A stretch of DNA of 64,000 bases from Planctomycetia bacterium. Its GTDB lineage: Bacteria > Planctomycetota > Brocadiia > Brocadiales > Brocadiaceae. The stretch's first letter is position 1, and each line of letters starts with the position of its first letter. Positions 22,846 to 56,431 of the stretch are shown here, one piece after another. The notes under the pieces were generated by a model. That model had not been told where the DNA came from and did not search any database. It saw only the letters and a list, made by a program, of their open reading frames with translations. The translations under genes and the position numbers were made by a program. The stretch lies in NCBI GenBank assembly GCA_015075005.1, contig JABTVC010000001.1, positions 744,001-808,000 on the forward strand, written 5' to 3'.

Positions 22846-25353
22846 ATGACAAGCGAAATAATTCAGAAAAGCGATACAGAGCGAACGATAAAAAGAATGG
22901 AGCTGGAACGAGAGACCATCCTCAATATAAACCATTTGGTGCTCTCTCACGTGAGTTATAAAGATTTTTGTAATGCGTTATGCTTAGAACTGAGAAAGAT
23001 CATAAACTTTGATTATTTTAGTTTGGTATCAAGGATTGACCCTTCGGGTGAATATTATACCTATTTGTTGGACTTGGGGAAAGATATACATAACCTCAAT
23101 AGAAGCAATGAGCTTAAAACTATTTTGGAAAAGTTCCTTTACCACGAGGTATCACAATCCAATAATATTATTGTAAGGAATGACTTGTATCAAAATGGGA
23201 ATGATAATGAAAAAAAACTGTTGAATAGCGGTATTACATCATACATGGTTTATCCACTCTTTATTAATAAAGCCCTGGTTGGTTGTATAAATATTCTTAG
23301 TAAAAATTGTACCTGTTTTACCGAAGCCCATAGCAATCTTATAGGTCAGGTGTCTGCACAAATAACCGTTACCTTGATGAACGCTATGCTCTTAGACAGT
23401 CTTACCGCCTCTGAAGAAAAATACAGGGACCTGGTTGAAAATGCGCCAGAGATTATCTTTAAGCTGGATAGCCATGGAAGGTTTCTGCATGTAAATAAAA
23501 TGGGATTAGAGATGCTTGGATATAGTGCAAGGGAAATGACCTCTATGTATTTATTTGATCTTGTAGCTGACGACAATGGGACTAGTATTAAGAAACAGTA
23601 TGATACATCCGTTAACTCACGGAAGGATAATAAGTTAGCCATGACTTTATTAGCAAAAGACGGTAAACGGTTAGATGCGGAAATAATGTGCTCAATTCAA
23701 TATGATACAATTTTAAATGATTATATGGCCAGGGTATTTGTTCGTGATGTGACAGAGCGACGGACATTAGAAAAAAGAATATTTGAATATCAGGAACGTT
23801 TAAAAGGTCTGTTAAAAGAAAAAACGCTGAAGTTGAGTGAAGCCGAAAAAGAAATGTATAATCAACGGAAATTCCTCGATGCCTTGATACAAAACACAAA
23901 TGTATATGTAGTTACGATAACACCTAAGGGAGAAATTGTGTTCGTGAATCGCGCAATAGAGAAGCGGTTTGGCTATACATTGTCAGAGATGATTGGAAAA
24001 TCAGTAATTGATGTTTTTATTCCACAAGATAAACTGGAAGAATTATTTGATGACATACAAATGCTCTTGAGTGGTAAGAAGGGAGAACAGATAGAAATTC
24101 CCTTTATTTCTCGGGATCATCAGGTACGTGATATTTTATGGATTGTAACATATTTCAAAGATGAGTGGAACACTATTTCAAACATTAATCTGTTTGGCTA
24201 TGATGTTACAGAGCAGAAGATATTAAAAGAGCAACTTATTCAGGCTGAAAAGATGAGTAGTGTTGGGACAATGATTTCTGGGGTTGCTCATGAGCTGAAT
24301 AACCCTCTGTCAATTATTATGAATTTCAGTGAACTTATGTTGCTGTGTGATAATCTGTCAAAAAGCGCCGCGAATCGATTAAGGCATATTATTGATGCAT
24401 CCCAGCGTTGTACCCGTATCGTGGAAAATCTTCTTACCTTTGCAACAAAACGAAAAACTGTCAGGAAGGGGCAGTATGTTTGTATTAACGACGTTATAAA
24501 GGATGCACTAGAATTAAAAATCAATGACCTCCGAGTCAATAATATCGTGGTAGAGCAGTCACTTTCCCAAACCATACCTAAGACAATGGCCGATCGTGTG
24601 CAACTCATGCAAGTCTTTATTAACCTCATTAATAATGCCCATGATTCCATGAAAGTTGCGCATGGTAGGGGAATACTAACTCTTCGTACATACCAAATAG
24701 ATGATAAAATTGTCGTTGAATTTGAGGACGATGGGAAGGGTATTCAGGAGCAGGAAAAATTGTTTACCCCTTTTTATACAACTAAAGAGGTGGGGAAGGG
24801 GACAGGGTTGGGTTTGGCGGTAAGTTATGGCATTATAAAAGAACACGGTGGTATGATTGTCGGTAAAAATTGTCAGAGAGGAGCCATTTTTACGGTTACG
24901 CTTCCCATCAAAGCGCAGGCAATGAAAGAGATTAAATTGTCTGTCAAAAGAGAGTATGACTTGAAAGGGTTGCGTTTATTACTCGTAGAAGATGAGGCGG
25001 GGATTGCAGAATCATGCAATGAGTTGTTGACGGCAAAAGGTTGCCGTGTGACGTCTGTGTCCAGTACAAGAGCTGCGATGCAGGCTGTTCAGGCAGATCA
25101 GTTTGATATCGTAATTATGGATTTGAAAATGCCTGGAGAAATAACTGGAATCCAATTTTACGAATGGATGTTGAGTTATATGCCTGTCATTAAGGAAAAA
25201 GTAATTTTAATGACAGGAGATACCCTTTCTCCTGAATATAGGACATTTATCGAAAAGAGCAATGTTCCTGTTATTACGAAGCCTTTCCGATTTAATACCT
25301 TCCTGGAAAGGATAGGTATAACGGCAAAAAAGGCAGGGTTGATTCAAGTGTAA
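22846..25353 (+). CDS. Hybrid sensor histidine kinase (GAF-PAS-PAS-HisKA-HATPase-REC)
   Basis: 835-residue cytoplasmic sensor. A GAF-type domain covers about 20-190, two PAS domains cover about 190-305 and 345-460, HisKA has His482 in SGVAHELNNPLSIIM, and HATPase has VFINLINNAHDSM, EDDGKGI and KGTGLGLAVSYG. A C-terminal receiver (about 708-825) has acidic VEDE and phospho-acceptor Asp759. No transmembrane segments. It is the only hybrid kinase in the window. The 225-base gap upstream holds no gene. Confidence 0.9.
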   Translation: MTSEIIQKSDTERTIKRMELERETILNINHLVLSHVSYKDFCNALCLELRKIINFDYFSLVSRIDPSGEYYTYLLDLGKDIHNLNRSNELKTILEKFLYHEVSQSNNIIVRNDLYQNGNDNEKKLLNSGITSYMVYPLFINKALVGCINILSKNCTCFTEAHSNLIGQVSAQITVTLMNAMLLDSLTASEEKYRDLVENAPEIIFKLDSHGRFLHVNKMGLEMLGYSAREMTSMYLFDLVADDNGTSIKKQYDTSVNSRKDNKLAMTLLAKDGKRLDAEIMCSIQYDTILNDYMARVFVRDVTERRTLEKRIFEYQERLKGLLKEKTLKLSEAEKEMYNQRKFLDALIQNTNVYVVTITPKGEIVFVNRAIEKRFGYTLSEMIGKSVIDVFIPQDKLEELFDDIQMLLSGKKGEQIEIPFISRDHQVRDILWIVTYFKDEWNTISNINLFGYDVTEQKILKEQLIQAEKMSSVGTMISGVAHELNNPLSIIMNFSELMLLCDNLSKSAANRLRHIIDASQRCTRIVENLLTFATKRKTVRKGQYVCINDVIKDALELKINDLRVNNIVVEQSLSQTIPKTMADRVQLMQVFINLINNAHDSMKVAHGRGILTLRTYQIDDKIVVEFEDDGKGIQEQEKLFTPFYTTKEVGKGTGLGLAVSYGIIKEHGGMIVGKNCQRGAIFTVTLPIKAQAMKEIKLSVKREYDLKGLRLLLVEDEAGIAESCNELLTAKGCRVTSVSSTRAAMQAVQADQFDIVIMDLKMPGEITGIQFYEWMLSYMPVIKEKVILMTGDTLSPEYRTFIEKSNVPVITKPFRFNTFLERIGITAKKAGLIQV

Positions 25354-26058: not shown

Positions 26059-26384
26059 ATGACAATAGAACATGTTTCCAATACTTCCTCCCATGCGATA
26101 ATTTCTAATTCGAGTCATGTTGAAGGAAATCAATCACATATAAAATGAAAAAGGAAGAACGTTCTGTGGATGAAAAAATTGACTCAGTCAATATCTCCAA
26201 TGAAGCAAGGAACCTTGAACAGACAATTGCAAATCTAAAGAATCGTATGGATGAAATGCCAGATGTTAGAGTTGCAAAAATGGAAGAAGTTAGAGCAAAA
26301 TTACGAGATTGTTTCTATGACAGGCCTGAAGTGATTGAACAGGTAGCAGAAAAGATCATAGGTGCCTTTACTATAAAAAAATAG
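26059..26384 (+). CDS. flgM: Anti-sigma-28 factor FlgM, probably frameshifted near its start
   Basis: Binds and holds FliA (sigma-28) until the hook is complete, when it is exported through the flagellum. The C-terminal part (26145-26384) is typical: VDEKIDSVNISNEARNLEQ, then RVAKMEEVRAKLRD and EVIEQVAEKIIGAF. The preceding frame begins at 26059 with an AGGAG ribosome site and ends in an overlapping ATGA at 26145; it contains a short Ser/Asn-rich, FlgM-like N-terminus (MTIEHVSN). The two parts make a normal-size FlgM (about 108 residues) if one base in the A-run at about 26142-26150 is added. It could also be two genes. Confidence 0.75.
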
Positions 26385-28077: not shown

Positions 28078-29485
28078 ATGTCGTCGAAGGCAGTAATTCT
28101 TATTGTAGACGATGAAGAAACAATTCGATTTTCAATAAAAGAGTTTTTGAGCGGACAAGGGTACGAGGTGATCGTTGCAGAAACTTGCGAACAGGCATTG
28201 GAGAAGATAAATGAATTCTTGCCAGACCTAGTATTACTGGATTTAAGGTTGCCTAATATGGGGGGTATAGAACTTCTTGAAAAAATAAAAACAAAAGATC
28301 CTAATGCTTTAATAGTTGTTATGACAGGGTTTGGCAGTATTGACACTGCGGTAGAGGCTATGAAGATTGGTGCGTATGACTACTTGGAAAAACCTTTCAA
28401 GACTGAACATTTAAAATTAATTGTTGAAAAGGCTCTGGGTACGCAGGCACTAAGGAGAGAAGTGCTTGAATTACGCGCACAGCACTGGACTTTTACTGAT
28501 GAACCTGGTGGTGTAATCATTGGGAATAGTCAGCAGGTGAAAGAGGTTTATAACCTTATTAAACAGGTGGCAAAAAGTCCGTCAACGACAGTACTAATAC
28601 AAGGGGAAAGTGGGACAGGAAAGGAGCTAGTTGCTCGGGCTATTCATCATTTAAGTTCACGGAAAGGTGGGCGTTTTGTTGATATCAATTGTGCGGCTTT
28701 AACAGAGAGTCTTCTTGAAGCGGAATTGTTTGGATATGAAAAGGGCTCTTTTACTGGAGCAGCCACAACAGGCAAGCCTGGTTTGTTTGAAGTGGCAGAT
28801 AAAGGGACAATATTTTTAGATGAAATAGGAGAGATGGGTGTTACTTTACAAGCAAAACTTTTAAGAATCTTACAGGAAAGGCAATTTAAGCGAGTAGGTG
28901 GAATTAATGACATCAAAATCGACGTTAGAGTTATTGCGTCAACCAACCGGAATTTAGAAGAAGAGGTGGAATCGGGTAATTACAGGAAAGATCTTTATTA
29001 TAGATTGAAAGTGTTGCCAATCTATGTTCCGCCATTGAGAGAGAGAAAAGATGACATTATGCTTTTAGTAAAACATTTTGTTCATAAATTTAATAATGAA
29101 CTTAAGAAGAATATTCATCACATACCGCCAGAGACAGAAAGGTTACTTTTGGAATACACATGGCCTGAAATATTCGCGAGTTAAAGAATGTAATAGAGCG
29201 AGCTGTTTTGATTGCTAACGACGGCACATTGCATGCAGAATTAGGTGTTACCCTTAATTCAAGAAAGAAAGATACCATAAATGAAAATGATATGAATGAC
29301 ACGAGTTTTAACGAAGAAAAAATGGAAAAATGAACATCCGTTCATTGGCTAATATTGAAAGGCAACATATTCAGAGGGTTCTCAACGAGACTTCATGGCG
29401 GAGGACTGAAGCAGCTAGGATACTTGGTATTAATAGAACAACGTTATATAATAAGATAAAAGAATATGGTATTAGTCCATCATAA
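28078..29485 (+). CDS. Sigma-54-dependent response regulator, frameshifted near the C-terminus
   Basis: NtrC-family regulator. Receiver with Asp55 and VDDEE; AAA+ with Walker A GESGTGKE (176-183) and the sigma-54 loop as GSFTGA (Ala to Ser, 223-228); Walker B TIFLDEIGE. The main frame stops at 29184 in the middle of the conserved WPGNIREL stretch. One G restored in CCTGAAAT (about 29165) gives WPGNIRELKNVIERAVLI, and one A restored near 29327 continues to the Fis-type helix (RTEAARILGINRTTLYNKI) ending at 29485. These are single-base losses, so a complete gene is likely. The ATG follows GGGGGAATAA. Confidence 0.82.
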
Positions 29486-29583: not shown

Positions 29584-31116
29584 ATGGGGAAAAAAATTTT
29601 ATTAGTGGATGACGAAGAGACACTGCGATGGGCTTTGCACGAAGCCCTGACAGAGGAAGGTTACGACGTAGAGAATACCAGTGATGGTGTTAAGGCTTTG
29701 GAATTTGCCAGAAAGGCAAATTGCGATTTGGTGATTAGTGATTTGAGAATGCCCACAATGGGTGGATTACAATTGATTTCCGAGATAAAAAAAATACGTC
29801 CAAACGCTAAGTCTATTATTATTACTGCTTATGGTTCAATAGAGACAGTTATCGAGGCCATGCATATCGGTACGTCAGATTTCGTTACAAAACCATTTAA
29901 AATCGAACATATAAAAAATGTTATTCATAGGGTGTTGAATGAATCTTCAATGTCAAACGAGAATATTGGAGATACGAATAATAACGAAGTATTTAAAACC
30001 GCGGATGCTAATCCATACAGAGAAACGAAGACATATTTTCTTTCGAAGGATACGACTGGAAATGCAAACCATACATTTCATGACTTTATTAGATTGGGAA
30101 AATTAAGTGTGTTTCTATTTGGAAGCGTTCCAAATGAGGTAGAACAGGATAATTTAGCTGTTATGGTTAAGACGATTTTCCGCTATATCTATATGACGGA
30201 AAAGGACAAAACTCCTGCTTCTTTGTTGAGAGATATTAATCGGTATCTTTGTAAGAATATTTTACAACGTTTTCCTGTTACATTTATTTGTGCTGTTTTA
30301 GATAAACAAAGACAAGTTCTTTGCTACTCAATATATGGGGAAGAACTTACAGGTCTTTTAGGCATGCCTAACAAAGAGATATGGGTGTTGGAATCACACA
30401 CTTGTTCGCTAAACATGTTTCCTGGGACAATGATCAGAGAAAGTAGCGTATCTTTTGTGCCCGGTAGCAAATTAGTATTGATACAGAGCAGTTCGTTGTT
30501 AAAAGCTCTTGAAAACGGGAAGGTTGGTGTTGACAAGGTAAAGGGTGTGGTAGCTGATGCGAGTAGTGACAGTTGCGACGATATGGCTAAAGGTGTTAAA
30601 TTTCAGCTAGAAAGGTTGGTAGAAGTAACTGATAAAGAAAAAGGTTTTGTGGTGATGGTTTCAAATCTTACGTGTGAGATAGATGATGCATGGGAGGAAG
30701 TAATATCTCTTGTAATGCCGATTAATAATTACGGGAAGATTTTAGAACAATTTGATAAAAAGTTATCGTCTGTTGTGACAGATAATTCCAAGCGACATCA
30801 AATTGTTACTTCTATCAATGAAGCTGTCTTGAATACTGTATCTTTTGCGTATAACAGAGATGAAAAAGGGGAGATACTCTTAAAGTTTTTAAAATTGGGA
30901 GACGAAATTATTATAGAGATATATGATCATGGGTGTGGATTTGACATACGGAACCACAAAAAACCAGGTATAAAGCTGTATAAAGATTTGACAAATAAGT
31001 CGGGTAGGGGGATTTTTCTTATGATGCAATTGATGGATAGAGTAATGATACAATCATCCAAAGAGAATGGAACTATTGTGCACATGGCAAAGCGAGTAAC
31101 TTGTAATGAAAATTGA
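29584..31116 (+). CDS. Receiver / degenerate PP2C (SpoIIE) / RsbW-like kinase fusion
   Basis: 510 residues in three parts. Receiver domain 1-120 with phospho-acceptor Asp53 and acidic VDDEE. Residues about 165-365 have the SpoIIE/PP2C outline but lack the catalytic acids: the GDVSGHG position is FGSVPNEV, the TDG position is QSSS, and the last DD is replaced by EKG. Residues about 385-505 are an anti-sigma HATPase with EAVLN (N-box), DHGCGFD and SGRGIFLMMQLMD, all intact. This predicts a regulated anti-sigma/anti-antagonist kinase whose phosphatase domain is catalytically dead. The STAS gene overlaps its end by 11 bases. Confidence 0.85.
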   Translation: MGKKILLVDDEETLRWALHEALTEEGYDVENTSDGVKALEFARKANCDLVISDLRMPTMGGLQLISEIKKIRPNAKSIIITAYGSIETVIEAMHIGTSDFVTKPFKIEHIKNVIHRVLNESSMSNENIGDTNNNEVFKTADANPYRETKTYFLSKDTTGNANHTFHDFIRLGKLSVFLFGSVPNEVEQDNLAVMVKTIFRYIYMTEKDKTPASLLRDINRYLCKNILQRFPVTFICAVLDKQRQVLCYSIYGEELTGLLGMPNKEIWVLESHTCSLNMFPGTMIRESSVSFVPGSKLVLIQSSSLLKALENGKVGVDKVKGVVADASSDSCDDMAKGVKFQLERLVEVTDKEKGFVVMVSNLTCEIDDAWEEVISLVMPINNYGKILEQFDKKLSSVVTDNSKRHQIVTSINEAVLNTVSFAYNRDEKGEILLKFLKLGDEIIIEIYDHGCGFDIRNHKKPGIKLYKDLTNKSGRGIFLMMQLMDRVMIQSSKENGTIVHMAKRVTCNEN

Positions 31117-31513
31117 GAGACAAGAAAAATGGAAGGCTATTATATTATCACCAAAAGGCGACTTAGTTTATGAAGGAATAGATGATCTCGAAACCCTTTT
31201 TCATGTATTGGGTGATGATGCACGTTATGTAATACTCGATCTTACGTATGCAAAATATTTATCAGCAAGGGCATTAGGCGTAATAGTTTATTACGTGAAA
31301 CTTTTTCGTGAAAAAACAAAGGGATTTGAAATTAATTAATGTGAATGAAAATATTAAAAACTGTTGGATATTACAGACATTATCAAAATAATCTCAATAT
31401 TTGAAAACGAGGGCGCAGCTTTGGCTAGTATTGGTCCACAAGTTGGCAAGCTAGAGAAGACGCTTTATGGTCTAAAGAACGTTTTGTTTAAATATCTGAG
31501 TAATTTAAGATAG
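31106..31513 (+). CDS. STAS-domain anti-sigma factor antagonist (RsbV-like), frameshifted
   Basis: Partner of the preceding RsbW-like fusion. The STAS core is visible: VILDLTYAKYLSARALGVIV, with a candidate phospho-acceptor Ser53 at the expected place. The first frame stops at 31339. A one-base insertion in the run of five A at about 31354-31360 continues to a normal end of the STAS domain (LLDITDIIKIISIFENEGAA) and stops at 31513. Binding of this protein to a target is expected to depend on phosphorylation by the HATPase domain. The target is unknown. Confidence 0.75.
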
Positions 31514-31521
31514 GTATAACC

Positions 31522-32412
31522 ATGTCGGATTTGATTAAACTTGATGAATCACAAGATACGATGAATATTCCCGGAAAAACTATGGAGACATTGAGTAATG
31601 ATGTCAGTGAGAAATTTGAGAGTAAAAAATCTTCAGTATTGAGGTTAAATATTTCTCGCGTTGGTTTATTGTTTCAACGCAATATGGACTTGCAATAGCC
31701 GTTATTTTTCTAATATTAGGGGCAGTTTGTTTTATATTTTACTCCAAATGAAGTGGATAAAAAGGGAAATCAGGATATTGGGCGTATTGTGGAAGAAAAG
31801 GTTATAGAGTCCATTAAAAAAAACATGTTCTCAGATAATAGCGTGAATAATATTGCAAGAGAAAACAATAAGGATAAGGAGTTAAAACACGATAAAAATG
31901 ATACAGATGTTTCAGATATAAAAAATGGATCGCAAGAAATACAAATTGATAACACGAAATATGTAATAGAGGCGAACAGATTATATGAGCAAGGGTGCTA
32001 TGAAAGCGCTGCAGCTTTTTATGAAGAAAGTTTAAATAAATCAATGCCTTTTTTAAATGAAGACTTCGTAATGTATCGGTTGGGGGATTCTTATTTCTTG
32101 TCTGAGCGATACGATAATGCATTAAAGGTATTTCAGTCGCTAAATAGTGATTACATTAACAGTTCGTATCAATTTAAAAGCCGATTGAAAACAGGTGAGT
32201 GTTACGCAAGGATGGGGGAATTTAAAAAGGCCAGAAAAGCGCTTTATGCTGTTATGGCACAAGAGGGAAAATGTTGTTCAAATGACGATAAGTTAACGGT
32301 TGTTGACTCTTATTTTAAAATAGCCGATTATTATATGGAAGAAGCGAAGCGGCTTCGTGAAGCAGGAGTTTGCGGAACTACTGCCACAGTTCTGTCGTTG
32401 GCCTCGAAATAA
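31522..32412 (+). CDS. Membrane-anchored TPR protein, frameshifted
   Basis: Starts at ATG 31522, nine bases after the STAS stop. The N-terminal 55 residues are hydrophilic; a transmembrane segment follows after a frameshift (about 31673), reading YGLAIAVIFLILGAVCFIF; a second shift near 31750 joins the frame that carries the periplasmic TPR region ending at 32412 (EANRLYEQGCYESAAAFYEE, FVMYRLGDSYFLSERYDNAL). The protein resembles the next gene in its TPR region. Its C-terminus ends soon after the last repeat, so further loss is possible. Confidence 0.65.
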
Positions 32413-32444
32413 GTGCGTTAATTTAAAATCGAATCAATAAGAAA

Positions 32445-34271
32445 ATGAAGAGAATTGTATCCATTAAAATACAATTAATATTATATGTATTCTTAATGAC
32501 ATTTACTTTTTCTTACGTGCAAGGAGAGCAAATTAATCACAATGTATTCAATATACATGAACTAAATGTTGAGAAGGATAATTTAGAAAAGCTTCAGGCG
32601 CAATTACAGATACTCGAAACAAAAGAAGACGTAGGAATACAGAATCAAAAAACGAGTTTTCAAGTTCATGGTCAAAATAATAGCATGCAGGCTAACAAAC
32701 CGCCGATTGTGATTAATCCGAATGAGAACATTGTGCTAAAAAAAGAAATGGGCGATTATGATGTGCACGTGTATTCAATTGATGCAACTCAAGTAACGGT
32801 AGCAGATGTATTACAAGCATTATCTGCAAGTTTTGGGAAAAGTATTATTGTTGATGATGAAGTAGACCCCGCCTATTTAGTTTCTTACATAAATATTTCC
32901 ATTCATAAAAGTCCTTTACAGGATATATTAGAAGTGGTACTAGGAATGCGTGGTTTAGAATTTGTCCAAAATGAAGATTCCATTTTTGTTACATCCTTGG
33001 CGAAACTTAATATCGACACAGCCTTTGAATATTATCGGGACAAGAGCATCCATCTGTACCAAAAGGCGCAAATAAAATATCCTAATGATAAGAGAATTGT
33101 AAAGGCGTATTTCGAGTTAGGAAATTATTATTTTGATCTAGGTTTTAATTTTCTCGCATTACAAGAATATCAAATAATTGTGGGAAAATACAAAGGCAGC
33201 CCACAAGCGAAAGAGTCGTTATTCAAAATAGGCCGTTGCTATGATAAACTAAACGATTCGGAAAGTGCAATACGAGCGTACTTTCAATTCCTGTCTAGTT
33301 ATCCAAAAGATCCACTAGTTGCTGACGCGCTATTGTCAATAGGTGACTCATTGATGGATCAAGGCCTTTACAGCAAGGCAATAGATATTTACGAAAAGAT
33401 CATTCGTGATTTTGCTAATGATGATTCCGGAGATGCGTCCAAGGCACAATTTAAAATTGCAAAAACTTACATGAAAATGGGGGATTATAGGCACGCCATA
33501 CAGGTATTCTTGAAAGCGAGATGGAAATGTTGTTCTGATCAAATGAGGGCGGAGATTGAATATCAAATTGGTAACTGCTTGTATTTGTTAGATGAATATC
33601 AAGATGCCGCGAATGTTTTGGGAAATTATTTAGTGAATGAGCAGGATGGAGAATTTGGTGAAAATGCCAGTTTTTTACTTGGTAATTGTTTTTATAAACT
33701 GAATAATTATCTAGGAGCGTTTCAAGTATTTAGACGAGCAATTGAGCGCTATCCGAAAAGCAATAAGGTTCCTGGCGAAATTTATTCTATGGGAAAAAGC
33801 CTAAGAGCCATGAATATGTTCGAGTCGGCAGTAAAGGTATTACGTGAAGGAATACAGGCATTTCCTGTTGATGATAATGCTAGCAAGATGGCATTTGAGA
33901 TAGGGATGTGCTATTTTGACAAGGGTGATTCTTGGTTAGCATATAACGCATTTGATAGTTTTGTAAAGCAGTATCCTGATGATGAACTCGTAGGCGAAGC
34001 AATGACTGGGATGGCTGATGCACTTCTTAACGATAAAAAATACATAGAGGCGATTAATAGTTATCTTGAATTAATAAAAACAATTAATGGTGAAGAAATA
34101 AGACGATATGCATTTAATCGCATCGGTGAGTGTTACAAATATATGGGAAAACTACAACATGCAGTAAAGGCATATCAGATAGGTTTACGCAATACTACGG
34201 ATACCGTTCAGGTAACGTGGCCCACAGAAGATTCCTTGGGTACGACAACTAGTGTTATAAAAAACAGGTAA
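32445..34271 (+). CDS. Exported TPR protein with STN-like domain
   Basis: 608 residues. A signal peptide (about 5-25) is followed by a coiled coil, then a region from about 108 to 190 that looks like an STN (secretin/TonB short N-terminal) domain (VTVADVLQALSASFGKSIIV, SPLQDILEVVLGMRGLEFV). Residues 195-590 are TPR repeats (IVKAYFELGNYYFDLGFNF; ELGNYYF/ESLFKIGRCYDKL and so on). STN plus TPR suggests a periplasmic/outer-membrane assembly protein. A 1-base A insertion near 34268 would add 18 residues (QVNQENKLAAEQNPLKYVLV) to a stop at 34327. Confidence 0.78.
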   Translation: MKRIVSIKIQLILYVFLMTFTFSYVQGEQINHNVFNIHELNVEKDNLEKLQAQLQILETKEDVGIQNQKTSFQVHGQNNSMQANKPPIVINPNENIVLKKEMGDYDVHVYSIDATQVTVADVLQALSASFGKSIIVDDEVDPAYLVSYINISIHKSPLQDILEVVLGMRGLEFVQNEDSIFVTSLAKLNIDTAFEYYRDKSIHLYQKAQIKYPNDKRIVKAYFELGNYYFDLGFNFLALQEYQIIVGKYKGSPQAKESLFKIGRCYDKLNDSESAIRAYFQFLSSYPKDPLVADALLSIGDSLMDQGLYSKAIDIYEKIIRDFANDDSGDASKAQFKIAKTYMKMGDYRHAIQVFLKARWKCCSDQMRAEIEYQIGNCLYLLDEYQDAANVLGNYLVNEQDGEFGENASFLLGNCFYKLNNYLGAFQVFRRAIERYPKSNKVPGEIYSMGKSLRAMNMFESAVKVLREGIQAFPVDDNASKMAFEIGMCYFDKGDSWLAYNAFDSFVKQYPDDELVGEAMTGMADALLNDKKYIEAINSYLELIKTINGEEIRRYAFNRIGECYKYMGKLQHAVKAYQIGLRNTTDTVQVTWPTEDSLGTTTSVIKNR

Positions 34272-34588
34272 ACCAAGAAAATAAACTTGCAGCAGAACAG
34301 AATCCTCTTAAATACGTCCTCGTTTGATACTCGTATTCTGAGCAATACATGTTGTTTGCTTTCGTCTGAATAATCAACTTAAGGTTCTAATGAATGTCGT
34401 TATTTTATTGTTCCTGTTATATGAAATAATCATTCTTTATTGAAGAATACGACAAAGTACACTGCAATATATTTTATGGCATTTCAAAGATGCATAGGCT
34501 TAACACTTCTTTTGTTAATTAGTTAAGACTATGTAGTCCTTCGTATAACCCATTCAGATTTGTTTGTTTAAGCAGCAATCTTATATGG

Positions 34589-34604
34589 TGGCACAATAAT
34601 TGCG
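34589..34604 (+). promoter_or_regulatory. Strong predicted sigma-54 promoter
   Basis: TGGCAC-AATAA-TTGC at 34589-34603, matching the -24/-12 consensus TGGCAC-N5-TTGC exactly. It lies about 65 bases before the TPR gene at 34667, which leads the kinase/regulator operon. The rest of the 34272-34666 gap shows no gene. Confidence 0.85.
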
Positions 34605-34666
34605 TATTGCCATGCAACGAGATATTATTTTAAAATTAATTATTTCACGAAGATTGTGGTAATTAT

Positions 34667-35617
34667 ATGATAATGAAGAAATCAGTTATATATAGCTTGA
34701 TTGTATTAGGATGGGTTACTTCCGTTTTTGGCGATGAGCACATTGATACTCAAAAAATTGATAACTTGTCTTCAGCAATATCACATAATATGCCTGTGAA
34801 GACAGAATTAAGTAATGATATAGAAAGACCATTACTAAGACCAATTGAATTAGAAAAGGACCATGCGATTACAAATGATCAGAGACTGCCAAAACCTGCC
34901 CCTGATTCTAAAAAAGAGCAGTGTATAGAAAATATAAGAGCAATTCTCTGTGCGGAAAGGAAGAAACTACAGGAACTCGAAAATGAATATAAAAGATTAG
35001 AAAAAAAGGCAATGGGAAAAGGTAATGAAATAAACTCTGGAACAGGCGCGATGAATGAGGCCGAACCGAAGATTACCTCAGTTGGTAACAACCAAATAAA
35101 ATCCAGCAAACTATCTGAAGTGGTTGACACGGCATCTATGATGATAAAGTCAAGCCCCGGAAAAGATGTGACTATGCAGGTTGGTAGTACGACCGGCGAA
35201 CGACATATAATGAAAAACAATCAGAAGTCAGAGGTATTTATGACTAATGAATTAAATCGTCGGTTGTCGAAAGTAGTTGGTGATATGAGTTTTATTGATC
35301 TTGCAGAATGTTTTTATAAATTATGTGAGTATGAGAATGCATTGCAAATGTATAAATCAATTACTCAGACAGATATTTCATCAGATCAATATACATGGGC
35401 GCAATATCAGATTGCAAACTGTTATAGGAATTTAAAAGAGTATGACCTTGCTTTTGATGCATATCAACGATTTGTTAATCAATATCCGAGTAGTGACTTA
35501 ATTGAACAAGCAAAGTGGTATTTAGAAGATATTAATTGGTGGAAGTCTTGGTACGAGAAAAATACAATTGCAAACAATCTGTTGCTTGCAGTATCAAACA
35601 GCAACGAATCAAAATAG
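34667..35617 (+). CDS. Exported coiled-coil TPR protein
   Basis: 316 residues with a signal peptide (about 5-22, cleavage near VFG-D). Residues about 85-120 form a strongly predicted coiled coil (CAERKKLQELENEYKRLEKK). The C-terminal part has two TPR-like repeats (IDLAECFYKLCEYENALQMY, YQIANCYRNLKEYDLAFDAY). The overall plan resembles CpoB/YbgF-type envelope proteins, but identity is unproven. It is the first gene after the strong sigma-54 promoter, and the kinase gene starts 19 bases after it. Confidence 0.75.
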   Translation: MIMKKSVIYSLIVLGWVTSVFGDEHIDTQKIDNLSSAISHNMPVKTELSNDIERPLLRPIELEKDHAITNDQRLPKPAPDSKKEQCIENIRAILCAERKKLQELENEYKRLEKKAMGKGNEINSGTGAMNEAEPKITSVGNNQIKSSKLSEVVDTASMMIKSSPGKDVTMQVGSTTGERHIMKNNQKSEVFMTNELNRRLSKVVGDMSFIDLAECFYKLCEYENALQMYKSITQTDISSDQYTWAQYQIANCYRNLKEYDLAFDAYQRFVNQYPSSDLIEQAKWYLEDINWWKSWYEKNTIANNLLLAVSNSNESK

Positions 35618-35636: not shown

Positions 35637-36956
35637 ATGATAGAAAATATGTCAAAAAATACCTTTGCCAAAAATTGGGATACCGAGCTTGCTGATGCCT
35701 TCCACATATTTAACCAGTATACCCAGCGTCTTGAAGAATCCTATAATCAGCTTCAAGATAGAGTTGAAGATATTGACAGGGAGATGGCACATACAAATGC
35801 CCGATTAAAAGACAAGGTACTTGAGTTAGACAATGTAACAAAATATTTAAATAGCCTTTTATGGAGTATTCACAGTGGTGTAATTGCAGTGAATTTAAAA
35901 GGTGAGGTTACTACTATGAATAAGGCGGCGGAGAAAATACTAAAATTACTCGCAGCGGAAGTAATTGGGAAAAGAGTGGAGATGATTTTAAAAGATCGCG
36001 ACGGTAGTACTCCATTGCTATTAGCGCTCGAAAGCGGGAAAAACTGTATAGATGTGGAACGAAAGATAGAAACAAATCAAGGGACATTGAAGTGGATTGA
36101 AAGTAGTGTTTCTTTAATTAAAGATGCAAATGAAAATACAATAGGCGCAGTGGAAGTATTTAGAGATTTGTCTGAAATCAGGGAATTAGAGACACGATTG
36201 AGAAATGCAGATAAATTGGCTGCCATTGGTGCTATGGCTGCATGTATTGCCCACGAAATTCGCAATCCACTTAACGGAATAGAAGGGTTCTCGGCTTTGC
36301 TCGCACGAGATTTTGAAGATTCAGATCCCAGAAAAAAATTAGTAAAAAATATACTACAAGGCACAAAGAATTTAAATAAAGCGGTGACTGAACTACTTGT
36401 ATTTGCGCGCCCGCTTAGACTGAAATTAAAGAATAGCCGTATTTCGGAGATAGTGGATAAGACGTTATTCTTTGTTGTAGAGGATATGAAATTAAAAGGT
36501 GTTAATAATATTCGTGTCCACAAGGATTGCAAGTTGGATACTGATGTTTTAAGGTGTGACCCTGAAAAATTACAGCAGGCCTTTTTGAACCTTTGTTTGA
36601 ATGCAATCCAGTCGATGATGTATGGGGGAGATTTAACACTGTCTACACGTCTGCAAGGGAGTGGTGGACTTGGCAATATACAAGTAGCAATAAGAGATAC
36701 AGGAATGGGTATCAAAAAAGAAGTCATTCATAAAATATTTGATCCATTTTTTACGACAAAACAAGAAGGGTCAGGTCTGGGTTTGGCAATCGTGAATAAA
36801 ATCATTGAAGCGCATAACGGCAAGATATTTATCGAGAGCGTGGAAGGCAAAGGAACAACGTTTTATATTAATTTACCAAGAAATTCCAATGTCGATGCCG
36901 ATGTCTTTGCTAATGAGTGGGAAAATAATATAGCCATGATTCCGCATTATTTGTAA
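35637..36956 (+). CDS. Cytoplasmic PAS sensor histidine kinase, likely flagellar (FlgS-like role)
   Basis: 439 residues with no transmembrane segment. A long N-terminal coiled coil (about 30-70) is followed by a PAS domain (about 70-190), HisKA with His206 in CIAHEIRNPLNGIEGF, and HATPase with QAFLNLCLNAIQSM, DTGMGIKKE and GSGLGLAIVNK. The position between a sigma-54-driven operon and the activator before flgB suggests a role like FlgS of epsilonproteobacteria or FleS of Pseudomonas. That equation is inference from place and domain plan. Confidence 0.85.
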   Translation: MIENMSKNTFAKNWDTELADAFHIFNQYTQRLEESYNQLQDRVEDIDREMAHTNARLKDKVLELDNVTKYLNSLLWSIHSGVIAVNLKGEVTTMNKAAEKILKLLAAEVIGKRVEMILKDRDGSTPLLLALESGKNCIDVERKIETNQGTLKWIESSVSLIKDANENTIGAVEVFRDLSEIRELETRLRNADKLAAIGAMAACIAHEIRNPLNGIEGFSALLARDFEDSDPRKKLVKNILQGTKNLNKAVTELLVFARPLRLKLKNSRISEIVDKTLFFVVEDMKLKGVNNIRVHKDCKLDTDVLRCDPEKLQQAFLNLCLNAIQSMMYGGDLTLSTRLQGSGGLGNIQVAIRDTGMGIKKEVIHKIFDPFFTTKQEGSGLGLAIVNKIIEAHNGKIFIESVEGKGTTFYINLPRNSNVDADVFANEWENNIAMIPHYL

Positions 36957-55693: not shown

Positions 55694-56431
55694 ATGGGTA
55701 AATCAAATACAGTTAAGATGGCTTATACAAATGAAAATATAACGAAACGTGATAAATTAATTACTGATAACATTTCGTTGGTTAAGTATGTGGTAGGTAA
55801 AATTATGGTGTATTTGCCTTCGTTTGTTGACAAGGAAGACCTCATAGAATACGGTATTCTTGGTCTGATAGAATCAGCGGAGAAGTATGATCCGAAGAAT
55901 AATACAAAGTTTGGGACATATGCCATTTCTCGTATCCGTGGGGCAATTTTAGATTATTTGCGATCGCAGGATTGGTTGCCACGTTCCATGCGAGATAAGG
56001 CAACGATAGTGAGAGATACCTGCATTTCATTGGAACAAAAGCTGAACAGACCGCCGTGTTCGGAAGAGATTGCAGCGGCACTAAAAATGAATCCGGAAGA
56101 ATGGGAAAAATTACTGACAGATATCAGCGCCGGTGCGTTTATTTCATTGGAGGAGTTCTATCAAAAATCAGAAAATACAACAGAAGGAAATAGACGTCAG
56201 GAAATCAGAGACCCCAAAATTCATGATCCTTTACGTGATCTAGAAACTAAAGAAGAAAAGGCTTTATTGGCAAATGCCATTTCAGAACTACCGAAAAGGG
56301 AAAGGTTAGTAATTACGCTATATTACTACGAGGATCTCATGTTAAGAGAAATAAGCGAATTAATGGGTATCTCAGAATCAAGAATATCGCAACTACACCA
56401 TAAGGCTTTGTTCATACTTCAATCAAAATGA
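55694..56431 (+). CDS. fliA: Sigma-28 (FliA/WhiG family) RNA polymerase sigma factor
   Basis: Directs transcription of late flagellar genes; held inactive by FlgM. 245 residues. Region 2 has YLPSFVDKEDLIEYGILGLI and FGTYAISRIRGAILDYLRSQ; region 3/4 ends LMGISESRISQLHHKALFIL, a typical DNA-binding helix. It follows flhG and the small membrane protein, in the common flhA-(flhF)-flhG-fliA order. Confidence 0.94.
   Translation: MGKSNTVKMAYTNENITKRDKLITDNISLVKYVVGKIMVYLPSFVDKEDLIEYGILGLIESAEKYDPKNNTKFGTYAISRIRGAILDYLRSQDWLPRSMRDKATIVRDTCISLEQKLNRPPCSEEIAAALKMNPEEWEKLLTDISAGAFISLEEFYQKSENTTEGNRRQEIRDPKIHDPLRDLETKEEKALLANAISELPKRERLVITLYYYEDLMLREISELMGISESRISQLHHKALFILQSK

Follow-up and report, generated by a model that had tools for sequence, protein, structure and literature searches.

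How a partner switch could operate once its phosphatase has lost the catalytic residues is the question raised by a three-domain gene and its overlapping STAS neighbour in the stretch of 64,000 nucleotides analysed here (the window). Partner switches are defined by the phosphorylation of a serine on the STAS protein; a conserved lineage in which the canonical serine and the phosphatase ligands are both gone, with kinase fold, receiver, and STAS retained, would mean that the logic of binding can survive the loss of the chemistry. The source genome (3.9 Mb, 93% complete) is that of a Brocadia-like anammox planctomycete, its nearest named match being a MAG of Candidatus Brocadia sp. at 83% identity; Candidatus Brocadia (Planctomycetota, Candidatus Brocadiales) follows the anammox way of life. 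Among the matches listed in a literature search, which covered titles and the openings of abstracts and left subscription papers mostly outside, no such anammox module was described. In these bacteria, the module would be a candidate control of the late flagellar genes.

The Fusion Protein and Its Domains

The gene at 29584..31116 (+ strand) encodes a protein of 510 amino acids, in which a receiver, a phosphatase-like domain, and an RsbW/SpoIIAB-type HATPase are joined; orthologues are present in 17 other genomes. All three domains, which had been proposed in the sequence-only reading, are matched above the Pfam cut-offs, namely Response_reg at residues 5-114 (E 3e-29), SpoIIE at residues 192-300 (35.8 bits versus a cut-off of 25), and HATPase_c_2 at residues 392-503 (E 2.8e-16). 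An AlphaFold model of the fusion protein (window protein with L038) has a mean pLDDT of 32.

In the receiver (29596..29925, + strand), residues D9, D10, D53, and K103 are invariant in 18/18 fusion proteins. The HATPase domain (30757..31092, + strand) is best matched by SpoIIAB and RsbW and has the marks of these kinases, that is, the Glu and Asn of the N-box, the DxGxG motif, and the G2 box. Residues E413, N417, D448, G450, G452, G474, and G476 are kept throughout the 18 proteins, E413 being presumably the counterpart of the catalytic base of the kinase fold. By these residues, the kinase-like domain retains its ATP pocket, in line with what had been read from the window alone.

Loss of the PP2C Metal Ligands

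The phosphatase-like domain (approximately residues 161-365; 30064..30678, + strand) was aligned in the 18 fusion proteins, in seven shorter relatives from family f4, and in 18 SpoIIE-type domains of other planctomycetes. Searching solved structures with a PP2C-only profile gave no significant match, the best plausible one being RssB of Pseudomonas aeruginosa (E 0.28), and, for this reason, the ligand columns were assigned from the 18 ligand-intact planctomycete domains together with the residues named as metal ligands in SpoIIE, where the source lists D628, D746, and D795 (PMC5468089). Four Asp columns, those of the motifs GGD, ADV, TDG, and DDxT, were taken as metal ligands. The first of them, column 164, corresponds to the first Asp of GGDxxD, which we take to be a metal ligand as well. 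In the outgroup, whose rows were chosen by filtering for the motif of the GGDxxD region, a filter that 18/18 of the PP2C matches listed passed, each of the four columns holds Asp in 18/18 rows. In the fusion proteins, Asp is found in 0/18, 0/18, 2/18, and 0/18 at columns 164, 181, 302, and 353, respectively, the two occurrences at column 302 being those of L012 and L015; in the shorter f4 relatives the corresponding counts are 0/7, 0/7, 0/7, and 6/7. The window protein has Thr164, Ser181 (FGSVPNEV), Ser302 (QSSS), and Lys353 (EKG) at these positions, so that the three acidic sites which had been recognized as missing map to columns 181, 302, and 353, and column 164 is added as a fourth. GGDxxD keeps its second Asp, D167, in 18/18 fusion proteins. 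Judged by these ligand losses, the domain is a predicted pseudophosphatase.

That the losses stem from sequencing error was considered and is ruled out by the agreement of 18 genomes, from which it follows that the loss is inherited. Ligand-intact homologues do occur within the same order, all four ligand motifs being present in a receiver-PP2C protein of G036, in a PP2C-HATPase fusion of G058, and in sensor-PP2C proteins of G011 and G030; in both G036 and G058 a STAS gene with Ser at the phosphosite lies nearby. These are other modules, which likely show the ancestral state and leave the conclusion on sequencing errors unchanged.

The STAS Partner and Its Phosphosite

The STAS gene (31106..31513, + strand) overlaps the stop of the fusion gene by 11 nt, an overlap already noticed in the earlier reading and now found in 16/16 family-f1 loci that cover the junction, with the second ATG being used in L016. 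In the window, the frame is open from 31106 to 31336 and then continues in other frames; it is open in the 16 other loci of an alignment of the relatives (A2) and also in G003 and G031, while the copy of G034 ends slightly before the end of the profile (one stop counted).

The phosphosite column was set by STAS profile alignment to SpoIIAA, RsbV, and TM1442, which is free of gaps around the site. In the Ser53-Ala54 pair of the window protein (31262..31267, + strand), Ala54 is located at the SpoIIAA phosphosite, given as Ser58 (PMC8256260), and Ser53 aligns with the Asp just preceding it. The partner STAS proteins, 20 rows including one duplicate (L103 = L025), have the Ser-Ala pair with Ala at the canonical site in 19/19 sequences. 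Among the other STAS sequences, counted after two window fragments without the site and one duplicate (L092 = L096) had been dropped, Ser occupies the canonical site in 29/30, seven of these being from the same order; the exception is L102 (24.9 bits), which has Gly. Both forms coexist in G030, where the STAS gene of the Ser form has a strongly matching SpoIIE domain and an RsbW-like gene beside it.

Ala at the canonical site is a second loss, which was absent from the sequence-only reading; together with the loss of the PP2C ligands, it leaves one and the same module with neither the canonical phosphoacceptor nor the phosphatase ligands. Both states are inherited and amount to one or a few events. 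As the residue that would be the canonical substrate is lacking, the earlier proposal that the receiver controls the activity of the kinase has become uncertain.

Distribution among Relatives and Other Switch Components

The same three-domain order was sought in 59 genomes, consisting of the window's own and 58 relatives, with family f1 comprising 33 genomes including the own one. It was found in 17/58 relatives, of which 16 belong to f1 and one (G034) to family f3; the copy of G003 is cut by a contig end, and L038, which is evidently the same record as G003, was counted once. STAS orthologues (>150 bits) accompany the fusion in 18/18 genomes and are otherwise present in G031, whose contig begins 28 nt before the STAS gene, and in 0/40 other genomes. 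In a sample of 392 genomes of the phylum, no full-length fusion was found outside the window's family; a match spanning PP2C and HATPase occurred in 13/392, all of them from f1 (E up to 1e-10).

The own genome shows no obvious replacement for the lost parts: the fusion supplies the only SpoIIE match and the only HATPase_c_2 match over the cut-off, with C1:854817 lying just under it (26.6 versus 27.4 bits), and its partner is the only PF01740 STAS protein. A SpoIIE match of more than 100 bits is present elsewhere in three of the 18 fusion genomes (G008, G028, and G030), and some others have weak matches to the C-terminal half of SpoIIE in proteins of about 250 amino acids.

The Flagellar Neighbourhood

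The earlier reading had seen in the flagellar/sigma-54 surroundings a hint of control over FliA or FlgM, and the case for this now appears stronger than claimed. A gene for a FlgM-like anti-sigma factor (26145..26384, + strand; PF04316 match at 26181-26360) is located 3.2 kb upstream of the fusion gene; at 27.5 bits, it passes the Pfam cut-off of 25 and misses the NCBIfam FlgM cut-off of 40.75. FliA (sigma-28) is encoded within the window as well (55694..56431, + strand), and FlgB, FliF, and FliJ are located between the fusion and FliA. The upstream neighbour of the fusion gene encodes an NtrC-like sigma-54 activator (28078..29184, + strand), which is frame-broken near its 3' end and open in relatives. 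Candidate inputs to the fusion receiver would be a GAF-PAS-PAS hybrid histidine kinase with a receiver (22846..25353, + strand) and a PAS histidine kinase (35637..36956, + strand).

FlgM is encoded 3.2-3.5 kb upstream of the fusion on the same strand in 12/18 fusion genomes. In G012, G025, G028, and G034 it is found on another contig, in G020 at a distance of 149 kb, and in fusion genome G019 it was not found; its distant position or absence from the findings in 6/18 genomes counts against an output through FlgM. Within family f1, FlgM is present in 16/17 genomes with the fusion (two of them below the curated cut-off) versus 1/16 without it, a co-occurrence that may only mirror the possession of flagella. 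Gene proximity and co-occurrence are what points to a possible action of the STAS protein on FlgM and FliA.

Four genes of the window look frame-broken, namely the start of flgM (26059-26384), the ntrC-like gene (28078-29485), the STAS gene (31106-31513), and a membrane-TPR gene (31523-32412). Most relatives have open frames for these four genes, although L010 and L015 also have a TPR gene that is short or split. As the breaks affect the NtrC neighbour and apparently the flgM start too, they point to errors of assembly rather than to decay, which suggests assembly indels. Between the STAS gene and the flagellar operon (31523-35617), successive genes encode TPR proteins, among them one with a single membrane segment, as judged by eye, and one at 32445-34271 with weak secretin-like STN/N0 matches. 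A second FliA-like gene on another contig (G000:C21:594-1268), similar to the family model to about the same degree as the FliA of the window, is either a duplicate or an assembly leftover.

Comparison with Known Partner Switches

The order of receiver, PP2C, and kinase/anti-sigma domain is common to the fusion, HsbR-HsbA of P. aeruginosa, and CrsR-CrsA of Shewanella, as these are described. Likeness to both systems extends to a separate STAS partner, encoded here by the adjacent single-domain STAS gene, and to flgM in the same gene region, the known output being FlgM-FliA (PMC6482189, PMC5085249). According to the same accounts, HsbR sets the phosphorylation of HsbA, and unphosphorylated HsbA binds FlgM, by which FliA is freed (PMC6482189, PMC5085249); swarming is reported to be lowered by overexpressed HsbA-S56A, while HsbA-S56D may still bind FlgM (PMC5085249). 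By description, HsbR-HsbA has a working phosphatase and a phosphorylated Ser56, whereas the module of the fusion is without the ligands and without the canonical serine. Homologous domains are also found in SpoIIE-SpoIIAB-SpoIIAA and RsbU-RsbW-RsbV, the partner STAS protein being best matched by SpoIIAA; these systems differ from the fusion in consisting of separate proteins with an active phosphatase and a phosphorylated serine.

An active PP2C had been stated to be the rule in known switches, and this agrees with the descriptions of HsbR and RsbU; overlooked was RssB of Escherichia coli, in which a receiver is joined to an inactive PP2C that lacks the active-site residues. RssB is described as binding sigma-S, which gives the domain pair a protein-binding role, and the mechanics of its linker and switch helix are reported to be common to RsbU (PMC12143880, PMC7226468). 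It differs from the fusion in being free of an HATPase domain, in the C-terminal truncation of its PP2C, and in its client, sigma-S. We know of no STAS partner of E. coli RssB. A further mark of RssB is the delivery of a sigma factor to ClpXP. RssB-RssC of P. aeruginosa likewise has a receiver-PP2C protein, whose operon includes an rsbV-like gene, yet it is described as catalytically active and, in that description, has no HATPase domain (PMC12143880).

Possible Modes of Action

The PP2C metal ligands and the usual STAS serine are missing, yet the genes persist; this suggests that the switch possibly works without the usual on-off phosphorylation. Our preferred reading, held tentatively and a little short of an even chance, is that of an HsbR/HsbA-type flagellar partner switch that would be driven by the receiver and in which the serine phospho-cycle would have been dismantled. 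A histidine kinase would phosphorylate D53 of the receiver; the state of the receiver would be relayed to the HATPase by the dead PP2C, similar to the linker and switch helices in RsbU and RssB; and the relayed state would alter the hold of the nucleotide-bound HATPase on the STAS protein. Release of the STAS protein would draw FlgM off FliA, because the STAS protein would stay unphosphorylated, which is the FlgM-binding form in the logic of HsbA, and the late flagellar genes would be switched on. With a STAS protein that is unphosphorylated throughout, the choice of partner would be set by the receiver and the nucleotide state instead of by STAS phosphorylation. It is possible, and a bolder claim, that the system of the Brocadiales had become a phosphorylation-free partner switch with both losses already in its ancestor, where the receiver would set the choice of partner, acting through a pseudophosphatase as allosteric relay and through an HATPase with bound nucleotide, and would so control FlgM-FliA. 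The module would then be a natural test of the HATPase and PP2C folds as allosteric parts.

Invariance of both Ser53 and E413 counts against a dismantled cycle, as it is what would be expected if phosphotransfer continued. Also weighing against the preferred reading are the NCBIfam score of the window's FlgM, the swarming and binding results with HsbA-S56A and HsbA-S56D, the second HATPase_c_2 match just under its cut-off, and the small number of events behind the two losses. In the partner STAS protein, no Ser/Thr is invariant except Ser53, which had been proposed as the phosphorylated residue, and E413 and N417 of the HATPase are invariant as well; an active kinase might accordingly phosphorylate a phosphosite shifted to Ser53, with turnover or another phosphatase, for example, the single PP2C_2 (PF13672) protein of the own genome (C12:1301472), resetting the switch and the dead PP2C serving as relay. 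We consider this, the main rival, somewhat unlikely. The canonical site is Ala54, Ser53 aligns with the residue that precedes the SpoIIAA phosphosite, and Ser is found in the column of Ser53 in 26/33 non-partner STAS rows, in addition to the canonical site, so that its conservation may be structural. Furthermore, the His of the NxxxHxY motif has become Phe421 in 18/18 fusion proteins, whereas it is His in 20/21 outgroup HATPases. Ser53 may cap a helix, or it may be a phosphosite that has shifted.

Less probable still is an adaptor of the RssB kind, in which receiver and pseudo-PP2C would bind FliA or another client directly and the HATPase and the STAS protein would be accessories that can be lost. 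Precedents are E. coli RssB itself and family f4 of the same order, in which seven genomes have receiver and pseudo-PP2C but neither HATPase nor STAS; in six of them, FlgM is found at a distance of 4.1-5.8 kb. Domain conservation in the fusion proteins speaks against it, as the HATPase (mean pairwise identity 0.58; receiver 0.73) is better conserved than the pseudo-PP2C (0.46), and so does the STAS gene, which overlaps the fusion gene and is never missing from the 18 fusion genomes. The NCBIfam RssB models, moreover, match the receiver only and score far under their cut-offs (87.9 bits against 700, and 72.1 bits against 329). The f4 loci (L026-L032) show the RssB-like layout in the same setting; in L027, the gene for receiver and pseudo-PP2C adjoins a small gene that encodes HisKA alone, and also a TPR gene. 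In three f4 genomes (L033, L034, and L035), this position is occupied by the receiver part alone, with 131-145 amino acids, which looks like a loss of the pseudo-PP2C as well.

In seven pairs of fusion genes, some of which share members, dN/dS is 0-0.13 for the receiver, 0.17-0.35 for the pseudo-PP2C, and 0.06-0.28 for the HATPase, and the pseudo-PP2C is by this measure under purifying selection. That the protein is a decaying, non-functional relic of HsbR, to which the pseudo-PP2C as the least conserved folded domain might point, is very improbable given these ratios for pseudo-PP2C and HATPase, a fusion gene free of internal stops in 18/18 genomes (one copy being cut by a contig end), and the conserved gene order.

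As to the origin of the fused module, two loci could represent possible sources. One is the gene row L093 of G036, from the same order, in which receiver-PP2C, HATPase, and STAS, the kinds of parts found in the fusion module, are encoded side by side, differing from it in that they are separate genes with all four ligand motifs and with Ser at the STAS phosphosite; the other, also from this order, is L090 of G058, a ligand-intact PP2C-HATPase fusion with another N-terminus.
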